NCBI GenBank assembly: GCA_028554795.2
Contig: CM068825.1
Coordinates: 151,936,053 to 152,000,052, forward strand
Length of the DNA: 64,000 nucleotides
Reading direction: 5' to 3'
Origin: Sinohyriopsis cumingii
Lineage: Eukaryota; Mollusca; Bivalvia; Unionida; Unionidae
The translations under genes and the position numbers were made by a program. Of the stretch, positions 9,645 to 60,594 are shown piece by piece; position 1 is the first letter of the stretch; each line of letters opens with the position of its first letter. The notes below the pieces were generated by a model. It ran no database searches. It worked only from the letters and a program-made list of their open reading frames with translations, and was not told the DNA's origin.

Positions 9645-10612
<968 letters not shown>

Positions 10613-10809
10613 GACCATAGTAGCATACTCTCTACTAGTTGGCATTTTTTTTTTAGTAACTTGTCCCCATTTAAAATGTGATCCACAGATGTGTTAAATA
10701 TGCTTGTCTATTAACATCAGTGTTGCTTTTAACACCAAATTTGACCTAGGACTCGGGATTGTGGGGTAATTGGTTCTCCATAGATTTTGTAAAGGTGATG
10801 GGACAATGT

Positions 10810-10892
10810 TTTTTTCTTTTGTAGTTTTGTTAATTGACACAAGATTAGAGTTTTTTCTTTTGTAGTTTTGTTAATTGACACAAGATTAGAGA
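10810..10892 (+). repeat. 41-bp tandem duplication
   Basis: A 41-bp unit ending in TTGACACAAGATTAGAG is present twice in direct tandem with almost no difference, implying a recent duplication in the H3.3 intron. Confidence 0.85.
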
Positions 10893-11144
10893 CATACATC
10901 ATGGCTCTTCTGCTTCACCAAATGTCTCCATAAAATTGACCGTACATTAGAAACGTGGAATGGTTGTAAAATCTAGTTGATGTGTTGATTACAGTATTTG
11001 CAGTACTTTCTCCATTTTGTCCTTTAGTTGACTGTAGTCGGATATTTGTTGTTGAATTAAAATAGAAAGATTAGAGTAATGCGTTTGCCTAATTCGTGAA
11101 CTCTATAACCCCTGGTGCCATGTTTATGCGTTTTTAGGTTGTAC

Positions 11145-11665
11145 CCAACTTTAGATCTCTCTAGTGTCGGCAGTAAGATGCACCTAAGTAGTTGGTAGGT
11201 ATTGCAGAAAAGTAGACAACTGTAGCTCTACTATGATGCCAAATCTGGACTTCTTACTTGCATTACAAAATATAAAACTTTTAGATCTGGTTTTTATTCA
11301 CTGAAAATTTACCCATTGTCAGAATAGATTTGTGTCAGGAGTTTAGACATTTTGGTCTGATGCCCAAGTCAGACTTGTGTGAACAGCACATGGACAGGTG
11401 ACCCTTTGCAAGAAGCATGTTACATTTGGGGATTTGGCCAGGACACAAATATCATAGGTCTGATAAACTTAATCACAAACTTGAAATATACCCAACTGTA
11501 CATGCACAAGTGAAGTTGCCAATGAAAAATGAGATTTCTGACAACTAGGCATCGTGTTAAAACAAAATGTGTCTTGGAAATCTCTGTATTTGGATGTATT
11601 CATAAGTAGCACCCTAAAATGCATTTCCTACTCCCACTTTGGGTAAAATTGTGGAAAAATCGGAT
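11145..11665 (+). repeat. Diverged second copy of the H3.3-intron MITE body
   Basis: Follows the same order of words as 10030-10600 (for example TAGACATTTTGG..., GACAGGTGACCCTTTGCAA, ACAACTAGGCAT, GTATTCATAAGTAGCACCC) at clearly lower similarity. The terminal TTAA and inverted repeats are not convincing, so it is older or truncated. Confidence 0.6.
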
Positions 11666-12526
11666 ATGAATGGGTGAATTTGGATGTCAATGACTGAATA
11701 TTCCTTGCATATTATATCATTTGTGCATCAACATAAATTACAATTTGTAAAAAATTACCAAAATCCTAGTCATTAATTTTGATGACATAACCAAATTTGA
11801 ATATTTTTTGTGTATTGGATCATTTGTGCATTGGTATTTCTCATAAATTATGAAATTGGCCATTCCTTGACATAATGTAAGAAATTACCAAGAAACTTCT
11901 TAAAATGTGCTAGCAGCATGACAACAAAAGATGGTGATTGTTCAGAGCTTGTCTTTAGTGAGAGGAATGTTAAAGAGCATATGGGTACTGATTTAGTTTG
12001 CAGAGAATTCCCAAGGCTGTTCCAGCAATTAAACAACGAACTGGTTTTGTTTGCTGTTGGGGGAAAAGCAAGATCTGCCAGTTATAAACACAAGTAGAGG
12101 AAGAATTACAACTTGTCAAAACTAAAGGTGGAATAAATGCGGAAATGTATATTCTGACCTGGCTCCTCCCCTACAAATGTTTCTATTTCACTGGTTTTAA
12201 AATAGGTAGACAGTTTTGTTTATTTTTAAACATTACATATAGTATAGATAATGTACTAAGCACTTCAAGTACTGGGCTAAACTAGTTGCACAAATCAATA
12301 TGATTCTTTTGTAAAGTTTAATTTTTTTTAACAAGGGTGGGGTGTAAAATGTGCAGATTTATCTACTTGCATTTTTTTCCACCTGCTATGTACATGAGAC
12401 CTTCTGTCAGGAAAGGTGCTTTGAAGGCTTGTTTCAAAAGAACATTTATGAATTTCTTGAGAAACTTTTTCTAATATTAAAACTTAATTTCATAGACAGT
12501 CCTTTTGAAATTTTGTTCTGAATTAA

Positions 12527-12679
<153 letters not shown>

Positions 12680-18535: not shown

Positions 18536-18926
18536 TTATACAGATCTGTTTGCTTGCTTTCCAGCCTGAATTTCATGCAGTCTAGCTTCCAGTTCACCAG
18601 ATGGAATGTCGTGTGTTCTATTGTAATGAATTCTTTTCAAAATATCTTGTTCTTCCAAGTCAAACATCTTACTGGGCAAACTTTCATCAAGATGTTCATC
18701 CAGATCATTTTCTTCTCGAAGTATGAAAAAGTAGATCATAAACGCAACAAGACTAATCCACACACTAAACCCCTGATATGGCGGTGCTGATTCACGCATT
18801 ACGACTTCTTCGTTTATCCTGCTCTGTGTCTTTCTAACTGACATGTATGGAAGTGGCTGGTCTCTGTCAATTGCATCATGTTCTCCAAGACAAATGGCAT
18901 TACAGTGAAAGCTAGCTGCCTCTGTC
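18536..18926 (-). CDS. UQCC4: UQCC4/CCSMST1-like mitochondrial membrane protein, exon 2
   Basis: Encodes residues 24-153 of a small single-pass protein. Seen: a DQPLPYMSVRKTQ motif at 46-58, proline-rich APPYQGF at 71-77, one hydrophobic helix at about 77-92, then directly LREENDLDEHL at 93-103 and a charged C-terminal helix (DLEEQDILKRIHYN). The sequence D-x-P-[IL] ... TM ... LREENDID is what I recall of the CCSMST1 (C16orf91, UQCC4) family, a mitochondrial inner-membrane complex III assembly factor; this is family recognition, not a search. The exon starts after TTCTTTCAG (minus strand), phase 2, and joins exon 1 at 22900 by completing a CGG codon. Only this exon shows as an ORF; its apparent upstream Met (18958) lies in the intron. 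Confidence 0.65.
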
Positions 18927-23277: not shown

Positions 23278-23430
23278 ATGGGTTATATTTCGTTGATCAA
23301 TGGTGTTATTAAAAGAAGATTTTCGTTATCTTTCATAAAATTCGAGATGGTGCGAATTCTAAATGTCGGAGAAAAGAACGATGCAGCAAAGTCAATTGCC
23401 GATATAATGTCAGGAGGAAGATACCGTAAG
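23278..23430 (+). CDS. TOP3A: TOP3A exon 1: targeting sequence and TOPRIM start
   Basis: Residues 1-51. The ATG at 23278 is preceded immediately by an in-frame TAG, so it is the longest start. Residues 1-23 (with K12, R13, R14, K21 and one acid, E23) look like a mitochondrial presequence. A second in-frame ATG at 23347 (Met24) starts directly at the conserved [14 protein letters not shown] segment. The first has T at -3, the second G at -3 and G at +4. The donor is AAG|GTAGTA at 23431. Confidence 0.9.
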
Positions 23431-24296
23431 GTAGTAGACTTGAATATGATGAATTGTAGAGCTGGTATCGTCAGCCATATTATAACACGATAGTACTGAA
23501 CACATAAAAAGACAATATACCCACGTAAATCCGTCAGATGGTGTAATCAGTAATTTTTTAAAGGGCAGTATTCGCTATCATCCCGGGACGGTTATGTGTT
23601 CCCTCTTACGGTCTACCTCCGGGTCCATCGAAACATCCGAAAACACGCCAAAACTTCGAGACATCCCAAGCACTCGAATCACCCCAAACGCCTCTCGTTA
23701 CATATATAAAGGAATAAAGCAAAAAATAATTTGTATAATATTTATCCAGACCAATCCAGCTGAGAAAACAATGTACTAGTAGTTTTTCTCAATGATTTTC
23801 TCTCTGAGAATTGCTTATCACAACTAGTAAAAGATGTTTTCTCAGAAAGATTTATACATTTTTAAGAAGCCAGTCCAGAACTTTCATAAAGCCACCAAAA
23901 GGCTTGACAAATTTTATTATCCTAAAATGTAACATTCATTGCTCTCTGTGAAGATTAATTTTCTGGTTCAGTTTGTGGTCACTTGGCTGTTTGTGTGCTT
24001 TTTCTGACTTTCATAGCAAGTATATGGACATAAAATCATTGTGACATAATGAGACGATATCAGCAGACTTTATAACTTGTTTATGAAAAGGAGCTGAATG
24101 GTAAAAGGTTTTTCAAATGTTTTTTTTATATCATTGACATTTGGAGAAAAATCCCTCTCCTCCGTTTAGTAAAAGTTTAAGATAAAGCATACAACTTACA
24201 AGGTCATTTTTCCCTCTAGTGATCATAGACCAGAAGAACGTTTGTTGTTTTCTGTTCATCTGTTGCTGCTCTTCCTAAAGTACATATATGTATATG

Positions 24297-28900: not shown

Positions 28901-31900
28901 TTAAAGTAAGAAAAGGAATGGCACAGTGTCCTTTATATAAGAAAGTCTGAGCAAGAAACACGTTTCAAAACACGTGCCTTTGCTACCCCCCCCCCTTCCC
29001 CAATTAAATGGCCTCTCCCTAATAAAGACTTGACTTCAGCAGATGTTCTGCAGGATCAAAGCAGTGGCTATTATAAACACTGTTACAAAATATCAACATC
29101 AAAAGATTATGTTAGTTTCAGCTTGGAAAATGTGTGTTCCCATCAAACGAAGCCATCAGACTTGGCACGTTGTATTTAACAGCTCCAATTACGGTCTCAT
29201 CATTAATAGCGAAGTTTGGTAATTGTTCCTAATTAATCAGACCTCAATGTATTGTTGAAATTAATAATAAGCGGGAAAATTTTCAGATCTTAGATGACCA
29301 TGCTGAGAGATTTTAATTCCCAACAAATGTATGGCATTCAGCTTGGATATCTCCACCTGTAATTAATTATTTGTTCATTCTTGTATGGGAAAAAATATAT
29401 AAACTATTCTTATTATCATAGAAAAAGTAGTTGTATGGAAAGGATGTGTCAGTAATGTAATCATAATAAATTGATCTAATTATTATAATTATTTCGATAC
29501 AAACGTAAAATATGCAGTTTCCCGATTGTGACTGTTGGAGCATTTAGCTAGCAAGCAAAAAAAAACAAAACAACCTTAAACAAACAAACATGCAATATAA
29601 TTTCTTTGAATAGTTGATGCCATGTTCTTTTGTGTGGTATAACGCTTTGTAGTTTGTTACTGTGGTCGCGTGAATAAAGTGTGATACCAGGTTATCTTTC
29701 ATTTAATTCGCTATCAGATTAATTAGGATCAATTACCAAACTTCTGTTGTTAATGACGGGACCATAATTGGCGCTGTTAAGCGAAATGCACAAAATCAGA
29801 TGGCTTCTTGTTATAGAAACACACATTTCCGAGGCAGAAATTGATGTTATCTTCTCATGCTAATATTTTATGACTGTGTTTACAACTTTCACTGCGTTGA
29901 TTCTACAGAACATCTGCTTAAGTCAAGTCTGTATTAGGGAATGGCGTAAACAAACGCTGACTGTTGATAAACAAAACTTACTAGCCCATTGGACTAATAA
30001 CATTATGAAAGTTACTTAAGTCCGACAGGAAATCTACTAGCCTTGGGCTAGCGGACTACTGCTGATTTTGAGCCCTGCATTATACAAATCTTGTTATAGC
30101 ACAGAAACATCAAGGATGGTTTCAGCATTCAAACATTTACAGAGAAGAGATGATCTTATGGATTCCAAAACATTCTTTGAAGACAGTATACACGAGTCCT
30201 AAAAAGGGATTTCAGAAAGTGGTAAAGTATTGCTTTGGTCACAACATTGCTGGTTAAAAAATTATGAATGATTATTGAAACATTTTGGTACTCTACACTG
30301 GACCTTTTTGATTTAGCTATAACAGATCACAGTAAATGGTTGCCTTTTATTTCTAATAACATCATGTGTTTGGAATGACAGATTTGCATGAGAACTCCTT
30401 GTTCCTTTGGTTAAAAACCATGTTCTATTTCCTTTTGTTTGATGAATCACACCATATCATGAAAATAAATTATTTATAGTCTAAGTAGGTCATATAATAT
30501 GGGTTAGATATAAATTGAACTCCACCTTTGAGAAAATACTGATGTAAGAGGAGTGTCACATAGAACTAGGTGCATTGTACAGAGCAACAAATGGACCTGG
30601 AAGAATGTGAGAATAGCAGTGGAAAGAGACTTTTCTAAATTTATCTAAGTTTCAACATATGCAGATGTCAAGAAATGAATGAAGAATAATCAATAAGAAT
30701 GACGATAATGCAGTTTTCTTTATTTTTATTATATATAGGATATTCTTTAAACCTTAAATGATAGAACGTTCACACTGAAAATAATCTTGACCCTCAGTAT
30801 GTAAACAAACCATCTTTGTTTGAAAAAATGGAGGAAAAAAATCATATTCATTCTGGGTTTTATATCGAGCAAAAGTATTCTTCTAGACATGTATTTTTAT
30901 GATGGTTCTTTGCTACAGTTATCTTTTCTTTTATTTTTAGCGAGAAGGATTTTCAAGGTTTAACAAGATCTATGAATTTGAGTACGACATCCTCAACAAC
31001 AATTGCACAATGACTATGACATCAGTTTCAGGACACCTGCTCAACCTTGAATTTGTTGGACAGTACAAAAAATGGTAAGACTTGGTTACTAAGCAACTAC
31101 TAAATGCTCAACCTTGAATTTGTTGGACAGTACAAGAAATGGTGAGACTTGGTTACTAAGCAACTACTAAATGCTCAACCTTGAATTTGTTGGACAATAC
31201 TAGAAATGGTGAGACTTGGTTACTTGAATTTGTTGGACAGTACAAGAAATAGCGAGGCTTGGTTACTAATCAACTACTAAATGCTCTGTCAATATTCAAA
31301 AAGAAAATTTTGGTTGAAGTAGGGATCAAAGCATCCTGTAGAATTTTCTTTGTTTATTTAATGAGTAATGTTTTGTGATTAAACATTTTAAGCAACACTG
31401 CATTCATTGTGGCTATTAATGAATTGAACAGAGTTCTTCCTAATGTATTATTAAGGTCACTTCCTTTCCATCGACTGTTAAGAGCCATGACTTGGAAACT
31501 GCTGAAATCTCCAGTCTGTATACAGTTGTAGAGCTTGAAATGTGAATTTGTATGTTCGTACAGTGTAATGTCACTAGCTTGTACTTTACTGTTTAAAATT
31601 TGAAACTTTTGTCATACAGCATATACATCATGAATCTAAGAAAATCGACATTTACATTTCTAAGCTGTTATCCATCATGGATGTGCACAGTGGGCTCTTA
31701 TTGGACAGATTAAGTTTTGTTGCTTTTATTGGATAGTCACAACATTATAGTTATGTAATATTGAATATCCATTACATTGCATTGAACTTACCAGCTATAT
31801 GAGCTACAGAAGATGTTACAGAACAATCTTTCTTAATCTGTGCACAATGGCTTTTACTATTCAAAGACTTGCCCGCTCAAATGCAGTGATTTGCATTGTG

Positions 31901-34900
31901 AGAGATGAAAGATAAATTTCTGAGCAAAGAATCCCATGGGAAATTTGAGGCTTTTCAGTGGTTTGGTAATTTTAATAACGATGGCTGATAGAGTCTGCTT
32001 TTGAATAAACAAAAGAAAGAGAAATTACATCTAAATATTTGCCATTTGTTTGGAGAAGAAAGGAGATATTGAAACAATCTTAACACGATTGCATGGACTA
32101 TTAATTTATAAAAATAAGAAATATGGGAAATATTATTATCTATTTTCATTCCCCTAGTGATTTTACTGGATCATTTAACTTGAGTGTGGAAGATCTGTGC
32201 TTGCCTCAAAATATGACCCTCAAAATGGGTAAAATATGAGATGTTTTAACAAATTCATGTTATACATATTTTACAAATAAAGAACTTTTCTTTTCTTCTT
32301 ATCTTTGTTGGGACTTTTAAAATCAGATGCCAATTATTAAAGTTGTCAAAAAGATGTTTGTAAATAGTACGTGGAAATAGATATGTAGACGAGGAAAAGA
32401 AGAAGGGTTTGAATGCAGATATTGGTAGAAGAGTTCATTTTGTTTTGTTGGTTTTAATGGCTATTGACTAAGCTTGTTACCACTTTTGAGGATATATTTT
32501 TTGTATAAGTAATGGAATATACACTTGAATCTGTGTGATCTTGGCCAAATTATGATATGACCTTGCTCTTGATAACTGCATTTGCTACCACTCTTGAGGC
32601 CATGTTTCTGATCTGTTTTGTTCATCATTGGAATATATGATTGTATCATTAAGAGCTTGGAAAAGTTTGATAGTCAGTGAAATCCATATATATTAATTCA
32701 TTTATTTCTTATTTTGCAAACAGTATAGTGTCTGCCTTCTTTGCAGATGCATTGTCAAAAGCACTACATTTGTACAAATGTAAAGTTCTCATATTAGTAC
32801 AGTGCAACCCCATTATAACGTGAATTAGGATATAACACGGTCTTGGCATGGCTTCCGAAATTTTGTATACTCATTTGCACATGAAAAAATATTTTTTGTT
32901 CAAAGTACATGAAATAGTGTATAAAAAATATATTATCATTATGGTGATGAGATCGTGTATGAATATGAATTTAATATGATCTTGGCATTCCTGAAATTTT
33001 AAATACATGTACATGTATTATTCTCGTACCTAGAAAAATACTTTTTTTAAAGTACGACAAATAGTGTGTAAAATATTTATTATCATTTTGGGGAAAGGTT
33101 CCTGTATGAATCCGAATATATTATGATCATGGCATAGCTTCTGAAATTTAACAATATCACCAGGTTCTTGAAGTTGTATGCCAAAATAAATATTATTGGA
33201 AATGTTACTTATTACTGGTTCATGAGTAAAGCCAGTAAGTCGTCTTTGTGATTGTCTTCCATTAATTTTGTATACAATCGTTGCTCAAACAATAGCCAAC
33301 ATGTACTTCTTCTTTAGCTGCATACACAACCAAGCAGCAGACAATGCACTGGTTAACCGTTGATAAAAGATTCTCACAGTTTAATAAACATCAAAAGACA
33401 AAAGATGCCAACATGTTTGCTGGACTTGGCGGTGTTATTAGACGCAATCAGTTGACCAGTAAATAATGTCCGCTTCATTAGCTGGAAATTGAAAGGATAT
33501 AAAATTGTACATTCGTTCAGCTTTAAATTTTTAATATAAAAGTGACTCATAACCATTGCAGGTGTACTGCACTTAGTTATTGGGATTTATATGTGTATGG
33601 GTTTACTTATGAACTCGTTATTAATTTCCTATTTTTTAGAAAAATATTTTACCATTATGGAAAAGCAAGTTTTCAAACGCAAGTCATTTTCTGCACTTTG
33701 CACAATGATTAGTATAGTAGTTTTCACATGTTTCTTTTGATATTCACAAAACCTGAAGTAAAAGTTAAATGCACGCTGATTGTTAATTATTCTTGCTGTA
33801 GTCATTCAAACGAATAGTCGTACAAGCGTTAATTATTGAAAATTTGCGATGGATAAATGTACATGGAAACGCATATGAGAAAATTTTAGCAGTATGAAAT
33901 TTGTACAGACACCGTTCATGGACCCTGGAACGTAATGAACCGTACATGTGTTCCATCTTTCTTAACCTAATTTTGGTGTTAATTTTTCCAATTGAATTCA
34001 GGCACATAATGATGTGTGACAGAATTATTCAATAGTTTAAATATGTATGCAATTTTTGCAATGGAATTACATATATTATGGATTAATTGCAAGCCCCAAC
34101 GGTACGATATCAGATGGCAAGTAAACAGTGTTGATACTCTGTTCATGCTGTATATTGGACATTGAATTCAGACACAATGATCTGGGAAAAAGATTTTTGA
34201 ATATTGTAAATCTGTTTGCAAGTTTTCGATGGAATTACATGCATTATAGATGAACTGAGTGCCATGACGGCATGATAGTAAATGGTGTTGATACCCTATT
34301 CATCATGTACATTAGACATGAATATACTTGTATGTGCCAATGAGTTGTTCTCTGAAAAAAGTAAAATACTGTAAAACCCTGCATTAACTTGATCCTGATA
34401 TTAACACTAACCAATTTTTTGGACCCCAGTTGTCCGTTATAGCGGGGTTCCACTGTACTTCTGGTTAGGAAAGATGGAACAACTTGTACCCTAACCTGAA
34501 GCAAATGTACTTGTACTCATACTTGAGTACTTTAAAAATGTATCCCATTCCATGCCCATCAGTTTTATTACTTTTTGTTTTTCTTTTTTTACAGGTACAG
34601 CTGTAATCCAGTTGCACTGTTTGATGCTCAAGTACAGAAATACTGTCCAGAAAATTACATTGATATCAAGGCAAGATGTTCTGTGATTTTTATGTCATTA
34701 TCAAAATGTGGCCTTTAGTCCATGAAATTGTACATTTAAAATGGTTTAATTTGGAGAATTTTTTATTTTTTTTGCACAATCTTAATTTACACAAATTAAC
34801 AAGGCAAGGTCTGTTCTAAGGTTTGCCATTGCAGAATTTGCAATAGTTTCTAAACAATCCTGTTGTATTTTAAAGCATAACCTATATCCCTTCTATATTC

Positions 34901-37900: not shown

Positions 37901-40900
37901 ATTGCGTGCTGAAAAATGGCGTTAAACCACACAACACTAACAACACTTAATAAATCAAGACTCCTTCCACCACCTCACGTATCCATACTTGTCTTTTAAA
38001 CATATTGTCCAATCTTAATATATTTGACATCCTTCCACCACCTCACATATCCAGTTCTCTCAAGAAAAAAAGACATTAATGTCTTTGACTTGTTATTGAC
38101 ACTAAAGGTGGTGCTCTACAGTTTCGTATTTTGCATAGGGTTAGGATTTTAAAGAAAAAGAATTTCCCCGGCTTTCATCACTGGTTATACTGGCTATTTA
38201 AAAAAGACCTTGTATATCTTAGGTATAATTCAGAGAACCTTTAATTCCCTTTATTTTGGTGTATAATTGATGGGTTATAGAGTATACAGCTTGGCCTTAC
38301 TTCAGATGTGCACCTTTCAAAAAAGTGCTTGCTCTACTTTGTCATTTTCACTTCCTGAACTTCAGAGGTAAATTGTATAAAAAAGAGCAGATAACTTTTT
38401 TTACATTTTGTGTATTTGGTAATTCATTCATTGCACTTTCAGAAGCTGGTATTGTCTAGTCTGGCAAAATACATTTTCCCTATTTTAGTAGCTGCTATGG
38501 ATAGTGTACTTTAGACTAATTCAGGCTGAGTTTTTAACACAAGGGAGCAGTCATTTTAGTTAGCAGTGTGCTTAAATCATGTAAAATTTCCAAAAGTACA
38601 ATATCCAAAGAAATATCATCCACATTACATTAATGTAGCATAGAGGTATGCCAACATTCTCTCCATTGTGCATGTTTTAAATGCGAACTACTTCACCTTA
38701 CATACATCACTCTCTCAAAAGTACATATTAACTGGTGAGCGCCCCTATAAAGAGAATATAGGTATTATTATTGTATGATTTAATTATGTTTATATGGCTG
38801 AAACATTTAAGTCGCAAGCATCAAAACAATCCTTTTGAATAATTGTCCTGCCTTTCCCCCCACAGAACAGTATTTATGAGTGTCAGAGTCTCTAACAAGT
38901 CCAGCCCCTCCCCCCCCCCCCCCCCCGATAAAAAGTGAGCTTTTTTAAGAATGCACATTACATTTTGTAAACATAGCAACTAATGTTATGGTGAATGACA
39001 GGAACATGAAACTAGCCAGAATTATTTCTGAGATATCAACAATGAATTTTACAATTTGAATAGGGAGGTAACTCATCGGGTTCATAAAGGTCAAAGGTCA
39101 AAGTGTAAAATATTTGCCTATTATTTCATATGGAAGAAGCGAAATTCACTTTCTCATCATTTATTTTTTTATTTCATTGCAAATAAATGAAAAAAAACAT
39201 TTTCACCATATATTTCTTTTACTTCTTCCAACAGTTTTAAATTTAAGTTGACTCTATTCCTATATTCTAAGACTTCTAATCTCCCCATAATTAAGGTCAC
39301 TACTCACACAAACATGCCTCATGGCAAATTATGTAAGCAAGAGCAAAATGAGCATAATTAGCTTATTTTCATGCTTAACATCAATATGAATGTACCATTT
39401 ATTCAGAACATCATACATAATTGTATAAAAATAAAAAAATAATTGCAAACATTTTTATATTTGCTTTAAGGTGGCGCTCTACAGTTTCATATTTTGCATA
39501 GGGTTAGGATTTTAAAGAAAACGAATTTCCCCAGCTTTCATCACTGGTTATACTGGCTGTTTAAAAAAGACCTTGTATATCTTAGGTATAATTCAAAGAA
39601 CCTTTAATTCCCTTTATTTTGGTGTATGATTGATGGATGTACTGTGAATTATAGAGTATACAGCTTGGCCTTACTTCAGATGTGCACCTTTCAAAAAAGT
39701 GCTAGCACTACTTGGTTAGTAATATTGCAAAGGATTACTCATGCTAGAATGAAAACAGTTAAGTGAAAAAACATTGCAAAGAATTCAGATCGTCAGTGAT
39801 AGATGGTACATTGGAAGTGATAATTATTGAAGAGGTAAGGTGTGGAAAAGGCTCCTATAAACAGCCTGTGTCTAAGTGTGAGTGTGTTGCACTCTTATAC
39901 CTTCTGATTGAGCCCATGAATGGAACAGGGTGCCCATTCAGAAGGTGTAAGGGTGCAATAAATGCATCTTTGACATTAAATAATTAAATTATTGTCCTAC
40001 TTTATTAATGGTTGTAGATGCTGTAAATAGTTATATATACATTAGAATCTTAAAAATCAGTATTTGTTTCGGAAAATCAGTATTTTTATTTATAAGCAGT
40101 TAGTATTTTTGTACTTTGGGTTTGACAGCTCTGCATTAAGCCAAAAGAAAAACACTTCTGAAATGCATCATCCTAGTTTTAATAGTGGTCAATGGATGGA
40201 ATGCAGAAGCAAACTTGTCTTTCATTTGAATAATTAACGGTGATAAAAGAACATGACAATTATAACTTTAATACTCAACTATCATTTGCCTCATTTGGTA
40301 TCACTGTTTGTTATGATATAATTTAAGTGGAAACATTTAGAAATATTAAGGTTGTAACATAAAGATTTTATGTTGATGTATTATTTTGTGATAAATTTGG
40401 AAACATAGATTGAAATTTATTTATTTTCATGTGGGTTCATCTTTAAATGGAGCCTTGAGAAACAAACAATGGCTACAGTAATAACAGCTGACAATTTATG
40501 ACTTGAGAAACACTCAGTGGCAACAGTAATGATAACTGACAACTTATGACTTGAGAAACACTTAGTGGCTACAGTAATGATAACTGACAGTCTAGTTACA
40601 GAGCCTTGAGAAACACTCAGTGGCAACTATAATAACTGACAAACCTATGACTTGAGAAACACTCAGTAGCAACAGTAATGATAACTGACAACCTGTGACT
40701 TGAGAAACACTCAGTGGCTACAGTAATGATAACTGACAGTCTATGTCTATATACAGAGCCTTGAGAAACACTCAGTGGCAACTGTAATGACAACAGAACC
40801 TATGACTTGAGAAGCATTCAGTGGCAACAGTAATGACAAATGATAACCGATGACTTGAGAAACACTCAGTTGCAACAGTAATAATAACTGACAACCTGTA

Positions 40901-43900
40901 ACTTGAGAAACACTTAGTGGCTACAGTAATGATACCTGACAGTCTAGTTACAAAGCCTTGAGAAACACTCAGTGGTGACTGAATGATAACTGGCAACCTA
41001 TATACAGTGCCTTTAGAAACACTCAGTGGCAACTGTAATGATAACTGACAAACCTATGACTTGAGAAACACTCATTAGCAACAGAAATGATAACTGACAA
41101 CCTATGACTTGAGAAACACTTAGTTGCAACAGTAATAATAACTGACAACCTGTAACTTGAGAAACACTTAGTGGCTACAGTAATGATAACTGACAGTCTA
41201 TGTCTATATACAGAGCCTTGAGAAACACTCAGTGGCAACTGTAATGACAACAGAACCTATGACTTGAGAAACATTCAGTGGCAACAGTAATGACAAATGA
41301 TAACCGATGACTTGAGAAACACTTAGTGGCTACAGTAATGATAACTGACAGTCTATATACAGAGCCTTGAGAAACACTCAGTGGCAACTGTAATGACAAC
41401 TGACAACCTGTGACTTGAGAAACACTCAGTGGCAACTGTAATTACAACTGACAACCTATGACTTGAGAAACACATAGTGGCTACAGTAATGATAACTGAC
41501 AGCCTATATACAGAGCCTTGAGAAACACTTAGTAGCAACAGTAATGAGAACAAAATGTGAAAATGGGGTCATGAGGCTTCAAAAAAGGCCATGGCCTAAA
41601 AAAGGCTGGGAACCACTGGTCTAGATGGCCAGAATATGAAATATCAGTGTTTAGTTTCAGTATACAATGTGATCGCGATTTACGTGAATTCGAAATAACA
41701 TGAGATGGGTAAAAATGCGAAAAAGATCAATACTATTCAGATAACTCTTTCATACATGTAGATTGTGCCACCATCGCATGCAAACATTACCCAAAATGCC
41801 CAGCTGTTATACCCCCACCATTCTGTTTATTGTGACCTCAGTGCTGCGTGGGTATGTACATGTACAAATTGTTTGTTACAATTTTGGAACGTTCTTATTG
41901 ATGGCATCTAAAAGACGAGCAAGTGATAGTCCAAAGGGACCAAGGAAGGCTATTTCTTTAGAGGTTAAACTTGAAGTAGTGAAAAGGTACGAAGATGGTC
42001 AGAGTACTGCCATGATAAAGCACGCTTTGAACCTTAGTGAAATTACATGTAGAGCAATGCATGACAGTGCTGAAAAAATAAAAGCAAGCGTGAAAGCTGG
42101 AACCTCCCTTTTGAACCAGAAAAGTTGCAATACCCACCACAACATAATGGACAGGATGGAAAGGATGTTGGCAAAGTGGCTTTATGAACACTAGTGTTCA
42201 GTGCAGCTTTCAATTTTTAATTACATATACATATGTTCTATTGATTAAAATTTGTACTATTCAGATAACTCTCTCATACATATAGATTGTGCCACCATCG
42301 CATGCAAACATTACCCAAAATGCCCAGCTCTTATACCCCCACCATTCTGTTTATTGTGGCCTCAGTGCTGCGTGGGTATGTACATGTACAAATTGTTTGT
42401 TACAATTTTGGAACGTTATTATTGATGGCATCTAAAAGACGAGCAAGTGATAGTCCAAAGAGACCAAGAAAGGCTATTTCTTTTGAGGTTAAATTTAAAG
42501 TAGTGAAACGGTATGAAGTTGGTCAGAGTACCGCCATGATAAAGCATGCTTTGAACCTTAGTGAAATTACATGTAGAGCAATACATGACTGCTGAAAAAA
42601 TAAAAGCAAGCATGAAAGCTGGAACCTCCCTTTCAAACCAGAAAAGTTGCTATACCCACTGCAACATAATGGACAGGATGGAAAGGATGTTGGCAACGTG
42701 GTTTTATGAACACTAGTGTTCAGTACAGCTTTCATTTTTTAATTACATGTACATATGTTCTGTTGATTAAGATTCGAAATGGGAAAAACCTACTCTCATT
42801 TCGGTAGTCCATTGAGCTTAAGCTCAGGTCCCAACTTCATGCTGGAGCAGGCTCAGTTTTAGCACCTGCAGTTTCCTTCTGACCTCACTGGAGTTTTTCA
42901 ACTAACTATGTACCAGACATCTGTTTTGTCAGTTACTGTCATGGTTCCCATCCAGTCCATTCGTTTGATTGATCAGCCATTGATTGTCTTAGATCGTGGG
43001 TCAGTAGTAATGAGTCCAGCTGCAAACCAGCCAGCTGTTCCAACATATGTATTCTGTTGCGGGGGTCCATCCAGTTGGTCCATCAGTATTGCTGTCCACT
43101 GACAGTCCTGCTAGTTCTCTTAACAATCCAAGATCTGCAAGTTGCTTGTCCTTCATATCAGCATTGGGTTCACACTTAAAATCTTGACTTTTGGGCAGAT
43201 ACCAGAACGTGCTTTTGGATGATGCTACTTCTTCCTTCAGCATGCTATAGTGTTCACCAATATGGATGACTGACCTGACAAGGACACGCTTCAGTCCCAT
43301 TCCATCCCCTCCCCCCCACCCCAGTGGATCCAGGGGTGGCCTCTATCAAGGCAAGATTAGGTGTGACACTTGCAAAAGCTGTCAGGATAATCACCTTACC
43401 TACATTGCCTGGTCAATCAGACCACGCTTGAAATCTGCAGACTGGTCAGAAACTATAAATGTGTGTGACTTTGACAAAACAGTTGTACAGGCCAATGAGA
43501 GAACTTGAAAATGGTCCAATAAGAAATCAGATGTCAGACTTGCTGCTGAAGCCATCTTGGTAGTGAACTTCGTCTGTTGTAATCCCTTAAAGCTGAGAAG
43601 TTACCCATAATGAAGTAGATTCTGCATCCTTTGCTGCCATGGACCCCAAATAACTCAAGTATCACCTTCACCCATATTACTTATTCTTTCTTACATGATG
43701 TAACAGCACCGGACAGATTCCAGGACCAGTATCACCATGATACGGATGCACATGTGGACCAGCCTTAGGAAACTCCATACAGCATGCACATGCCATTACC
43801 ATTTATGGTCATCTAATACTAGATAGCTGGCACCAGACCTGTGGACCTGACAATATCTAGTCATGTATTAAATTCACAAAATCAATATGAAACCTATCTG

Positions 43901-52900: not shown

Positions 52901-55900
52901 TCTCTTATATGAGAAATCAGTTTTATATTTCTTATGTTACTTTTCTTTTTTTTTCATTATGTTCTCAATTCCAGTACTTTTTAAAGCCAACTCAGATTTT
53001 CCCAATGCTGTATATCTAGTCAAAGAAAATAATCAGATAAATTTCTTCAGATTGATGTAGTTCATTTCCCAAACAAATGTTGAGTTCAGTCTTTATATAG
53101 AGCTCTGACCTCGGATAGTTCCAATCCATGAAGTTAAATACCCAATTTATTAAATCTTTATGTAGAGCTCTGACCTTGGATAGTTCCAATCCCTTAAGTT
53201 AAATAACCAATTTATTCAGTCTTTATATAGAACTCTGACCTTGGATGATGCTAAGACATATGATTCAGTGACATACTTAACAACCATTTGACCTTGGGGT
53301 CAAGATTACATTTTACAGCAGTGGTTTGATCATGGGCTGGACATGCAGACCCTGGCCTTGTTGTTTCTGCTCCCTTTTTTATTGTGACCAATGGCAAGGA
53401 CTATGAATCTGTATTTAGTACTCAATAAAGACACATTTATACCTGCAGGTGCTGCTTTCACTCGATTTCAAACTCTTAGGCTCCAGAAGTTATTCCCAAC
53501 AGTTCTTGGGGATCAGCTGATAAGCTATGGAAGTTGTCAGTTTCCAACACTTGGTTTTGTAGTGGAACGTTACAAACAAGTGCAAGCTTTTATACCAGAG
53601 CCATTTTGGAAGTTAAAAGGTACATGGATTTTATCATATTGGAAATGTTTATACTGTTTGGAAGTTAAAAGATACATGCATTTTATCATATTGGAAACAT
53701 TTATGCTTTTTGGAAGTTAAAAGGTACATGCATTTTATCATATTGGAAAGGTTTATACTTTCTGGAAGTTAAAAGGTACATGCATTTTATCATATTGGAA
53801 AAATTTATACTTTTTGGAAGTTAAAAGGTACATGCATTTTATCATATTGGAAACATTTATACTTTTTTCTCTCACACCCATGAATGTTGGAAAAGTATAT
53901 GACCCAACAATCTGAAATGATGAGACAGTTTCTCATGGCAAAATTTCATGGTCACACTTGTCTGAATTTATTTTTTGCATACACCCAAATCTGTCATCAC
54001 ATGATGTGCTGGCAGGGCAGATCTGGTCTCTTCAATTTGTTAGGAGTAATCTGTAGATCAAACATCATAAATACATAAATCCTGATTCGAGAATACATCG
54101 TGCAATGGCAGATCAGGGTCTGTGTTGTTTGCAGGTGGACTACTTTTATTAATGAGTATATACTGTTTATTAGAGGGGCCCCAAGTGGCCGAGTGGTCTA
54201 AAGCGCTCTCCGTTATGGATCACTGCCATCTCACCTCTGTCTGTGTGGGTTCGAATCTAGGATTCGGCCAATGTGGGTATGTGAGAAAGCTTGCCAGTAG
54301 CTTCTCGTGAGTTGGGGGTTCTTCCTCTGCCATTAATACTGGCTGCCATGCATAGCCTATCGTGTGCTGAAAGATGGCGTTAAACCCCACAACAACAACA
54401 ACTGTTTATTAGATTTTTGTATTGGCTATTTAAATTCAATATATTCTTTAAGTAAGACCTGTTTACTTGATAAGCAGGTAGTGCAATCTTGGAATCTGAT
54501 ATTAATGATATAAAATGAAACAAATGTAAAAATCTTTTAAATTTCATTAAAAGCAGTGCTCTCGATTTCAGAACAATATAAAATATATACAATAAATCTA
54601 GGTTATGTTATAAAATGGCAAATAATTGTATGTTACTGGATCTATATTGTTTTTTGAATTTTTTTTACAGTTCAGCATAAGATAGAAGATAAAGCAGTTG
54701 AGTTTGTCTGGAAAAGGTAAAATTTTAAGTTATAAAATATGATTTGAAACTATATCTGCATGAAAATGTCTGTGACATGCCAATTCCTTATGCTAGATAA
54801 TAGGGTCATAGACCAATTCATTCCTCAGAAAATGATCTGGAATGAGATTTTTCTCAAAAGTTTTCTCCTTCAGACATCAGATTAATATATAAAATGGGAG
54901 ATGCAAAAATGTTCTAATCAATGGGAGCCCCATTCTAGGTTCTAAAGTGAGATTAACCCTTGTCCTGCTAATCTGTATAGATCATGTGATTGTATTTAGT
55001 ACTTTGGATTTTTTTTCTTGTCCCATCAGCATACAATGAAGTGGGGAAGCTCGTAAGATTTATCAAGACGCAGATGTTTTGCTTTTCCCCCAAGAAACTT
55101 GATAGCTTCCAGTTCTTTGGATACTGACATTTTTCTCTTCCAACTCAGTCTTAACTTATTGGAATATACAAATTGTCCCAGTTATTTGATAGCCTTAGCA
55201 ATCCAATAACTATATTCAAATAACTTGACAACTTGATTTTATTCCTGCCAACTGGTATCTGGATACTCAGGTATCCGCCTGTTTATAATAACCTGGGTAA
55301 TAAATGAGCCATGTGGTACCTGTTTTGTTCATGTAAAGAAAAGCATGTTTCTGACTTCAGATTAATGATTATATCCAGCAGCATCAGGTCCAAGTGAGAC
55401 ACAGAATAATGTGTACAGTTCTACTACATCTACTTTCCTTATTTTCCATTTATAGTAACTGTATATGATACATTTCCAATTAAACAGATGTGTTTCTTCA
55501 GTTTGAAACTGTGTCACAGATTTATTATATTTTGATACACACTTAGGTAGTGAACCAGTCTGTATTTAAAAAAATGGTACCAGATGTGAAGTGAAACAGG
55601 CTTTATCGATGTGACTCATAATGTTACATGACTGAAAAATGTCAGAGGAGAGGAATTTTTTCAACATAAGAACATGTTGGATCATGAAAAGGATAAATCA
55701 ATATCATCTTATAAATTCTGAAAGAAGAATTCAATATTCATGTAATACTGCATTCAGATTCAACTCATTGTCATACTCATTGCAGAATTTGTGGATTTGA
55801 CTTTACGACCATTCAGCAAAAGTTAGACAATTTATTTGTGTTTGTATTCAAGTCCTAATCTAAATGGATTTAGCCAATTTGTGACAAGAATTTTAACTAA

Positions 55901-59924: not shown

Positions 59925-60060
59925 GTAAGCTGTAGAAGCTACATGTATTAATCTTTGACTTTGGCACTATTAACATAAAGAGACAATGGGGTCAGTATTA
60001 CAGTTGTGCAATGCCACTGATGTTACACTTGATACAGATATCATGAACATGCAGTACATG

Positions 60061-60594
60061 TACCTTATGTTAATTTCTCTATGAGTAATTTGTGATGGGC
60101 TTGACTGTGTCATTTCAATATGAAAGTACCTTATGTTAATTTCTCTATGAGTAATTTGTGATGGGCTTGACTGTGTCATTTCAATATGAAAGTACCTTAT
60201 GTTAATTTCTCTATGAGTAATTTGTGATGGGCTTGACTGTGTCATTTCAATATGAAAGTACCTTATGTTAATTTCTCTATGAGTAATTTGTGATGGGCTT
60301 GACTGTGTCATTTCAATATGAAAGTACCTTATGTTAATTTCTCTATGAGTAATTTGTGATGGGCTTGACTGTGTCATTTCAATATGAAAGTACCTTATGT
60401 TAATTTCTCTATGAGTAATTTGTGATGGGCTTGACTGTGTCATTTCAATATGAAAGTACCTTATGTTAATTTCTCTATGAGTAATTTGTGATGGGCTTGA
60501 CTGTGTCATTTCAATATGAAAGTACCTTATGTTAATTTCTCTATGAGTAATTTGTGATGGGCTTGACTGTGTCATTTCAATATGAAAGTACCTT
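60061..60594. repeat. 66-bp minisatellite, eight near-identical copies
   Basis: Unit starts at 60061, 60127, 60193, 60259, 60325, 60391, 60457 and 60523 (constant 66 bp), beginning TACCTTATGTTAATTTCTCT. Copies appear identical by eye. The minus strand stays open through the array because 66 is a multiple of three. Confidence 0.97.

Follow-up and report, generated by a model that had tools for sequence, protein, structure and literature searches.

A 52-bp tandem array spans the exon 7 splice donor of TOP3A in the bivalve Sinohyriopsis cumingii

The window contains the N-terminal part of a TOP3A gene

The window analyzed here is a 64,000-nucleotide stretch of the Sinohyriopsis cumingii genome (GCA_028554795.2, contig CM068825.1, positions 151,936,053 to 152,000,052 of the forward strand). 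Between positions 23347 and 59924 lie ten coding exons that, spliced in phase, encode 298 residues without a stop. From residue 3 onward, this protein aligns without gaps to residues 36 to 331 of human TOP3A (4cgy_A; E value, 6.8e-140), scoring 468.6 bits against TOP3A versus 207.1 bits against TOP3B. It carries both a Toprim domain (PF01751; E value, 2.3e-14) and a Topoisom_bac domain (PF01131; E value, 2.9e-27), which, together with the closer match to TOP3A than to TOP3B, identifies the gene from its N-terminal part. Since the alignment ends at residue 331 of the 754-residue chain, TOP3A must continue to the right of the window. The enzyme is essential in mice.

Exons 7 and 8 together match residues 217 to 287 of human TOP3A (E value, 1.9e-29), and the join 53620/54671 reads K-L-K-V where the human counterpart reads R-I-K-V. 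The two exons are contiguous in TOP3A, with a single intron (53620 to 54670) between them. Across the 10 TOP3A donors, U1 pairing energies lie between -4.8 and -10.7 kcal/mol. At 34671, exon 3 of the clean gene model ends in a GC donor (AAG/GCAAGA). The coordinates of the features relevant to this study are listed in Table 1.

Table 1. Features of the two donor-spanning tandem arrays in TOP3A
Feature	Position	Strand	Remarks
TOP3A coding exon 2	30941..31074	+	Gene model; donor lies inside the 67-bp array
67-bp tandem array, four units	31038..31281	+	About 24 bases missing where units 3 and 4 meet
Exon 2 donor GTAAGA	31075..31080	+	
TOP3A coding exon 7	53449..53619	+	Gene model; 171 bases, ends in phase 1
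52-bp tandem array, 5.1 units	53604..53867	+	TRF, unit alignment; opens with the last 16 bases of exon 7
Exon 7 donor GTACAT, unit 1	53620..53625	+	Sole copy of the five with an uninterrupted reading
Unit 2 donor copy ATACAT, mutated	53672..53677	+	U1 duplex, -0.2 versus -5.6 kcal/mol
In-frame TAA	53718..53720	+	Reached by transcripts from donors 53724, 53776, or 53828
Unit 3 donor copy GTACAT	53724..53729	+	If used, 104 extra bases with a stop
Unit 4 donor copy GTACAT	53776..53781	+	If used, 156 extra bases with a stop
Unit 5 donor copy GTACAT	53828..53833	+	If used, 208 extra bases with a stop
TOP3A coding exon 8	54671..54716	+	Gene model

The exon 7 donor lies in the first unit of a 52-bp array

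Tandem repeat analysis (TRF) delimits an array with a period of 52 bp, 92% matches, and zero indels. Placed in register, the five units share 46 to 50 of 52 positions in every pair, whereas the 52-mers just before and just after the array share only 10 to 12 and 12 to 13 positions, respectively, with the units. Unit 1 contains the exon 7 end together with its donor, and all added units fall within the following intron. The donor context AAG/GTACAT is retained at four of the five donor positions (units 1, 3, 4, and 5), that is, in three of the four extra copies. Among these intact donors, bases -3 to +7 are identical, and the spacings are 104, 52, and 52 bases. An earlier sequence-only reading had described five 52-bp units starting within exon 7 of TOP3A, with GTACAT donors in all but the second, which reads ATACAT. 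The repeat analysis, a readout of the hexamers, and the 10-exon comparison with human TOP3A (counting coding exons) agree with that description, except that the array ends at 53867 according to TRF rather than at 53875. The hexamer GTACAT occurs elsewhere in the gene as well, at the exon 4 donor (37458).

Intron 7 also contains, at 54180 to 54410, an element that we take to be of the tRNA-like SINE type, with head GGCCGAGTGG and tail GGCGTTAAA. A search of Rfam gave no match for this element; its tail motif GGCGTTAAA is found again at 37918 and 62209.

A second array covers the exon 2 donor

The sequence-only reading had also pointed to a second such array with an unrelated unit in the same gene, and this array is indeed present, with a 67-bp unit, at the donor of exon 2. 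TRF reports it as two rows (31038 to 31224, period 67; 31180 to 31267, period 43), which together represent one array. Unit 1 starts within exon 2 and covers the exon end and the donor. The deletion joins units 3 and 4, leaving only the first two units whole. Copies of the donor are found at 31142 and 31209 (both GTGAGA) and at 31252 (GCGAGG). Splicing from any of these three copies would place a stop immediately at the border (KKW*), and U1 pairing of the later GTGAGA copies is close to that of the true donor (-8.1 versus -8.0 kcal/mol). The best ungapped score between the 52-bp and 67-bp units is 7, compared with a mean of 8.1 and a maximum of 13 in 60 shuffles. The units are thus unrelated, which indicates an independent origin of the two arrays.

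Only the first donor of each array is compatible with normal TOP3A

Splicing from any of the three intact downstream donors of exon 7 would run into the same TAA after 272 residues, and use of position 53672, if usable at all, would produce a stop after 259 residues. For donor 53776, the 156 added bases amount to whole codons and restore the frame of exon 8, yet translation stops after LFGS. The sequence-only reading had noted both the preserved frame and this stop, but had taken the latter for a TAG. The 52-bp array therefore yields no alternative full-length TOP3A protein. Given the clean 298-residue reading across the 10 exons, the coding donor is in both arrays the first one, and, judged from this protein reading, it is presumably also the one used in the animal.

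U1 pairing is equal for the four intact exon 7 donors (-5.6 kcal/mol), and their predicted accessibility is similar (0.009 to 0.017). Since the four copies score alike, neither property can account for a choice of the first donor; if the first donor is chosen, exon context or position must be the reason. The number of surviving copies was compared with neutral decay, in which 10 changes over 260 sites would leave a six-base donor intact in 79% of the units. Four of the five hexamers are intact, versus 3.95 of five expected. Selection keeping the donor copies is unsupported by this fit, and nothing points to selection either for or against the spare donors.

Origin and age of the arrays

Both arrays have short repeated words at their edges. 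The 52-bp array starts with TTTT, and TTTTT follows its five whole units; the 67-bp array starts with TGCTC, and TGCTC returns after its last unit. Because the starting word of each array recurs just past its last unit, the ancestral single copy was in both cases probably flanked by direct repeats of 4 to 5 bases. Slippage or short-homology duplication commonly starts from flanking repeats of this length.

Compared to unit 5, which equals the TRF consensus, units 1 to 5 show 3, 3, 2, 2, and 0 base differences. Five of the seven variable columns are altered in one unit only, which suggests that the 52-bp units are about equally old and were not recently homogenized. Half of the changes in the array (5 of 10) fall in unit columns 43 and 44, which read TG, CA, GG, AA, and CA in units 1 to 5. 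As TG and CA are the expected products of a decaying CpG, these columns suggest a mutable site, possibly a decayed CpG.

No further copy of either unit was found in the window by blastn. Of the rows returned, 57 of 63 (52-bp unit) and 22 of 28 (67-bp unit) lay outside the unit's own array, with best E values of 0.29 and 1.5, respectively. A dispersed repeat or transposon as the source of the units was likewise not seen within the window by blastn, and a search of Rfam gave no match at the gathering threshold.

Placement of tandem arrays relative to splice sites

Null models at the scale of the window stood in for a genome-wide enrichment analysis and covered the region from 23347 to 64000. Arrays with a TRF score of at least 50 and a period of at least 20 were entered after merging overlapping rows, and the short-period rows at 24284, 25263, and 25923 were dropped. 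The exon 2 array was ended at 31267, as given by TRF, instead of at 31281. This resulted in eight arrays occupying 2,532 bases (6.2%), two of which cover a donor and none an acceptor.

The nulls disagree depending on what is counted, that is, sites, whole arrays, or single units. Counted per site, arrays cover 2 of the 19 TOP3A junctions versus 1.2 expected (P = 0.33), and 2 of 10 donors versus 0.6 expected (P = 0.13). Without the 1.1-kb array at 40450, the expectations drop to 0.69 junctions (P = 0.15) and 0.36 donors (P = 0.05). When whole arrays are placed randomly, two or more fall on donors with P = 0.10 and on any junction with P = 0.15. Random placement of single units gives P = 0.004 for donors and P = 0.013 for any junction, or 0.004 and 0.014 when placements with more than one unit inside an exon are disallowed. 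These two single-unit nulls are the best models of the first duplication among those run, but their values are post hoc, as the pair of arrays had been noticed before the test.

In addition, the 50 bases around each junction were compared with all positions within 1 kb to detect direct copies, using 1,500 random positions as controls (mean score, 27 of 50). A score of 35 of 50 was reached by 9.5% of these controls. The two array donors score 48 and 42. Scores within 1 kb are 22 to 29 at the remaining 17 TOP3A junctions, no better than the controls, and 23 and 26 at both coding junctions of the histone H3 gene in the window, without a remnant array at any of them. Against the 9.5% background, the two array donors correspond to P = 0.55 among 19 junctions and P = 0.24 among 10 donors. 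The 52-bp array itself is certainly beyond chance; its placement on a donor is not clearly so.

A probable tolerated minisatellite across a splice donor

The exon 7 array is very probably an ordinary minisatellite that extends across a splice donor, has the anatomy of the amphioxus "mirages," and is tolerated because exon 7 uses its own donor. A short-homology tandem duplication that by chance straddled the exon 7 border with its donor would have given rise to the minisatellite, a route suggested by the edge repeats, and the duplicated segment would then have expanded to five units. Exon 7 would splice from its donor in unit 1, producing normal TOP3A, with the remaining units sitting in intron 7 and their donor copies acting as passive decoys. 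Splicing at a later copy would lead to an early stop, and such transcripts would be lost or useless. Tolerance could thus come from the exon context or from decay of the faulty mRNA.

The occurrence of two donor-spanning arrays in a single gene speaks against a chance minisatellite, as reflected in the single-unit P values for donors and for any junction. A duplication process in this lineage that favors exon-donor borders, as a genome-wide mirage-forming bias, would make two arrays per gene expected. Besides the single-unit values, which persist when only tolerated placements are allowed, such a bias is in line with the coverage of two donors and no acceptors by the eight arrays, with the donor count once the 1.1-kb array is left out, and with the several amphioxus genes for which such arrays are described (PMC3087553, PMC3902484). 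However, the per-site, whole-array, and direct-copy comparisons are all compatible with chance, remnants are missing at the remaining 17 TOP3A junctions and at the two H3 coding junctions, and the array pair was spotted before testing. While border bias is possible, we regard it as an unlikely explanation of the two arrays. We are equally doubtful of the broader proposition that minisatellites form preferentially across exon-donor borders in a lineage other than amphioxus, such that transcription- or splicing-linked DNA damage in animals would repeatedly give rise to mirages. The sequence-only reading had offered tolerance or a mechanism acting on exon-intron borders; coding logic favors tolerance, and a border mechanism is not evident at the scale of the window (P = 0.33 per site).

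Two other explanations have much less to recommend them. The spare donors could be used in a regulated way, with stop-bearing transcripts feeding mRNA decay to tune the level of TOP3A. Three intact downstream donors that each lead to a stop would suit such a role, but one copy is dead and the survival of the others equals the neutral expectation, so that nothing shows retention; regulated use is very unlikely. The array could also stem from the assembly, through units wrongly expanded or collapsed or two haplotypes joined. Tandem arrays are easily misassembled, and one amphioxus globin mirage was apparently misassembled in the genome draft according to the authors of the report (PMC3087553). 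False duplication of one sequence would not, however, produce units 1 to 4 that each differ from unit 5 by 2 to 3 bases. An artifact is therefore highly improbable, although the copy number could still be wrong.

Comparison with mirages and other border-spanning repeats

The amphioxus reports (PMC3087553, PMC3902484) describe mirages as minisatellite-like tandem units that include an exon-intron border and so repeat its splice sites. Examples are Adh3, the globin genes BflGb6 and BflGb9, troponin C, and PGBD5, with units of 10 to 72 bp in Adh3 (PMC3087553) and repeats of 60 and 108 bp in PGBD5 (PMC3902484). Splice signals occur in many, though not all, of the extra copies described there. The TOP3A arrays match these in anatomy and size through three sequence features, seen in the 52-bp array as follows: head-to-tail units of minisatellite size without indels, a true exon end and splice site in the end unit, and splice signals in the extra copies. 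Splicing is reported there as undisturbed, with Adh3 data and globin RT-PCR suggesting normal splicing (PMC3087553, PMC3902484). In TOP3A, coding logic suggests it, through the intact 298-residue reading from donor 53620. The systems differ in the gene involved, and, unlike the units of BflGb6, which are reported as partly homogenized (PMC3087553, PMC3902484), the 52-bp units appear equally old. On this comparison, the TOP3A arrays would be a further, mirage-like case of a known kind of repeat, and may represent mirages outside the cephalochordates. The genomic settings are also distinct: amphioxus has about 41% GC and shorter introns, compared to 33 to 36% GC and introns of up to 9.3 kb in the window. 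In the literature searched, which covered the field in part, only amphioxus cases carry the name mirage. The available text of two mollusc papers, on clam globin genes (PMC4732748) and the zebra mussel genome (PMC9210306), contains no similar case.

Tandem repeats at exon-intron boundaries are also known from humans, where variable repeats can alter splicing patterns and 27 intron modifications survived a manual check (PMC2812944). While those repeats can form new introns between recent paralogs, TOP3A shows neither a new intron nor a new exon. In potato, a tandem duplication crossing an intron-exon border created a new intron (PMC4974935). TOP3A shares the border-spanning duplication with the potato case; it differs in that only the donor side is repeated and the added units lie in one intron, whereas the potato duplication involved the acceptor side. 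Intron gain by tandem duplication does not apply to TOP3A, as the added units lie within the intron from 53620 to 54670 and exons 7 and 8 are contiguous.

The locus constitutes a natural duplicated-donor experiment, in which four donors share all nine consensus positions and only the first is compatible with normal TOP3A. If arrays do favor exon borders, TOP3A would test how the spliceosome picks among equal donors. It is also a possible case outside amphioxus for arrays that are viewed as raw material for new introns.

Other features of the window

Further tandem repeats are present in the window. The TOP3A intron after exon 10 contains 8.1 tandem copies of a 66-bp unit at 100% identity (60060 to 60594; TRF). 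This array is evidently younger than the 52-bp array and lies off any exon border of the model. The 1.1-kb array in TOP3A intron 4 (40450 to 41551) is a minisatellite whose 48-bp units are arranged in higher-order periods of 409 and 457 bp. An exact 41-bp duplication (two copies, 10810 to 10891) contains a polypyrimidine-AG stretch resembling an acceptor; it was rejected as a duplicated acceptor, since it lies inside the H3 coding intron (9930 to 12550), off both borders. The histone H3 gene, which we take to be of the H3.3 type, has coding exons at 9648 to 9929 and 12551 to 12679. On the minus strand, the protein of an ORF at 18536 to 18961 matches the Pfam family CCSMST1 (PF15013; E value, 1.4e-14). 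Finally, two adjoining and similar sets of ORFs lie at 41745 to 42716, the first of which includes a CENP-B N-terminal-like stretch (E value, 0.00084, below the curated cutoff); we assume that this region is probably a duplicated remnant of a Tigger-type transposon.
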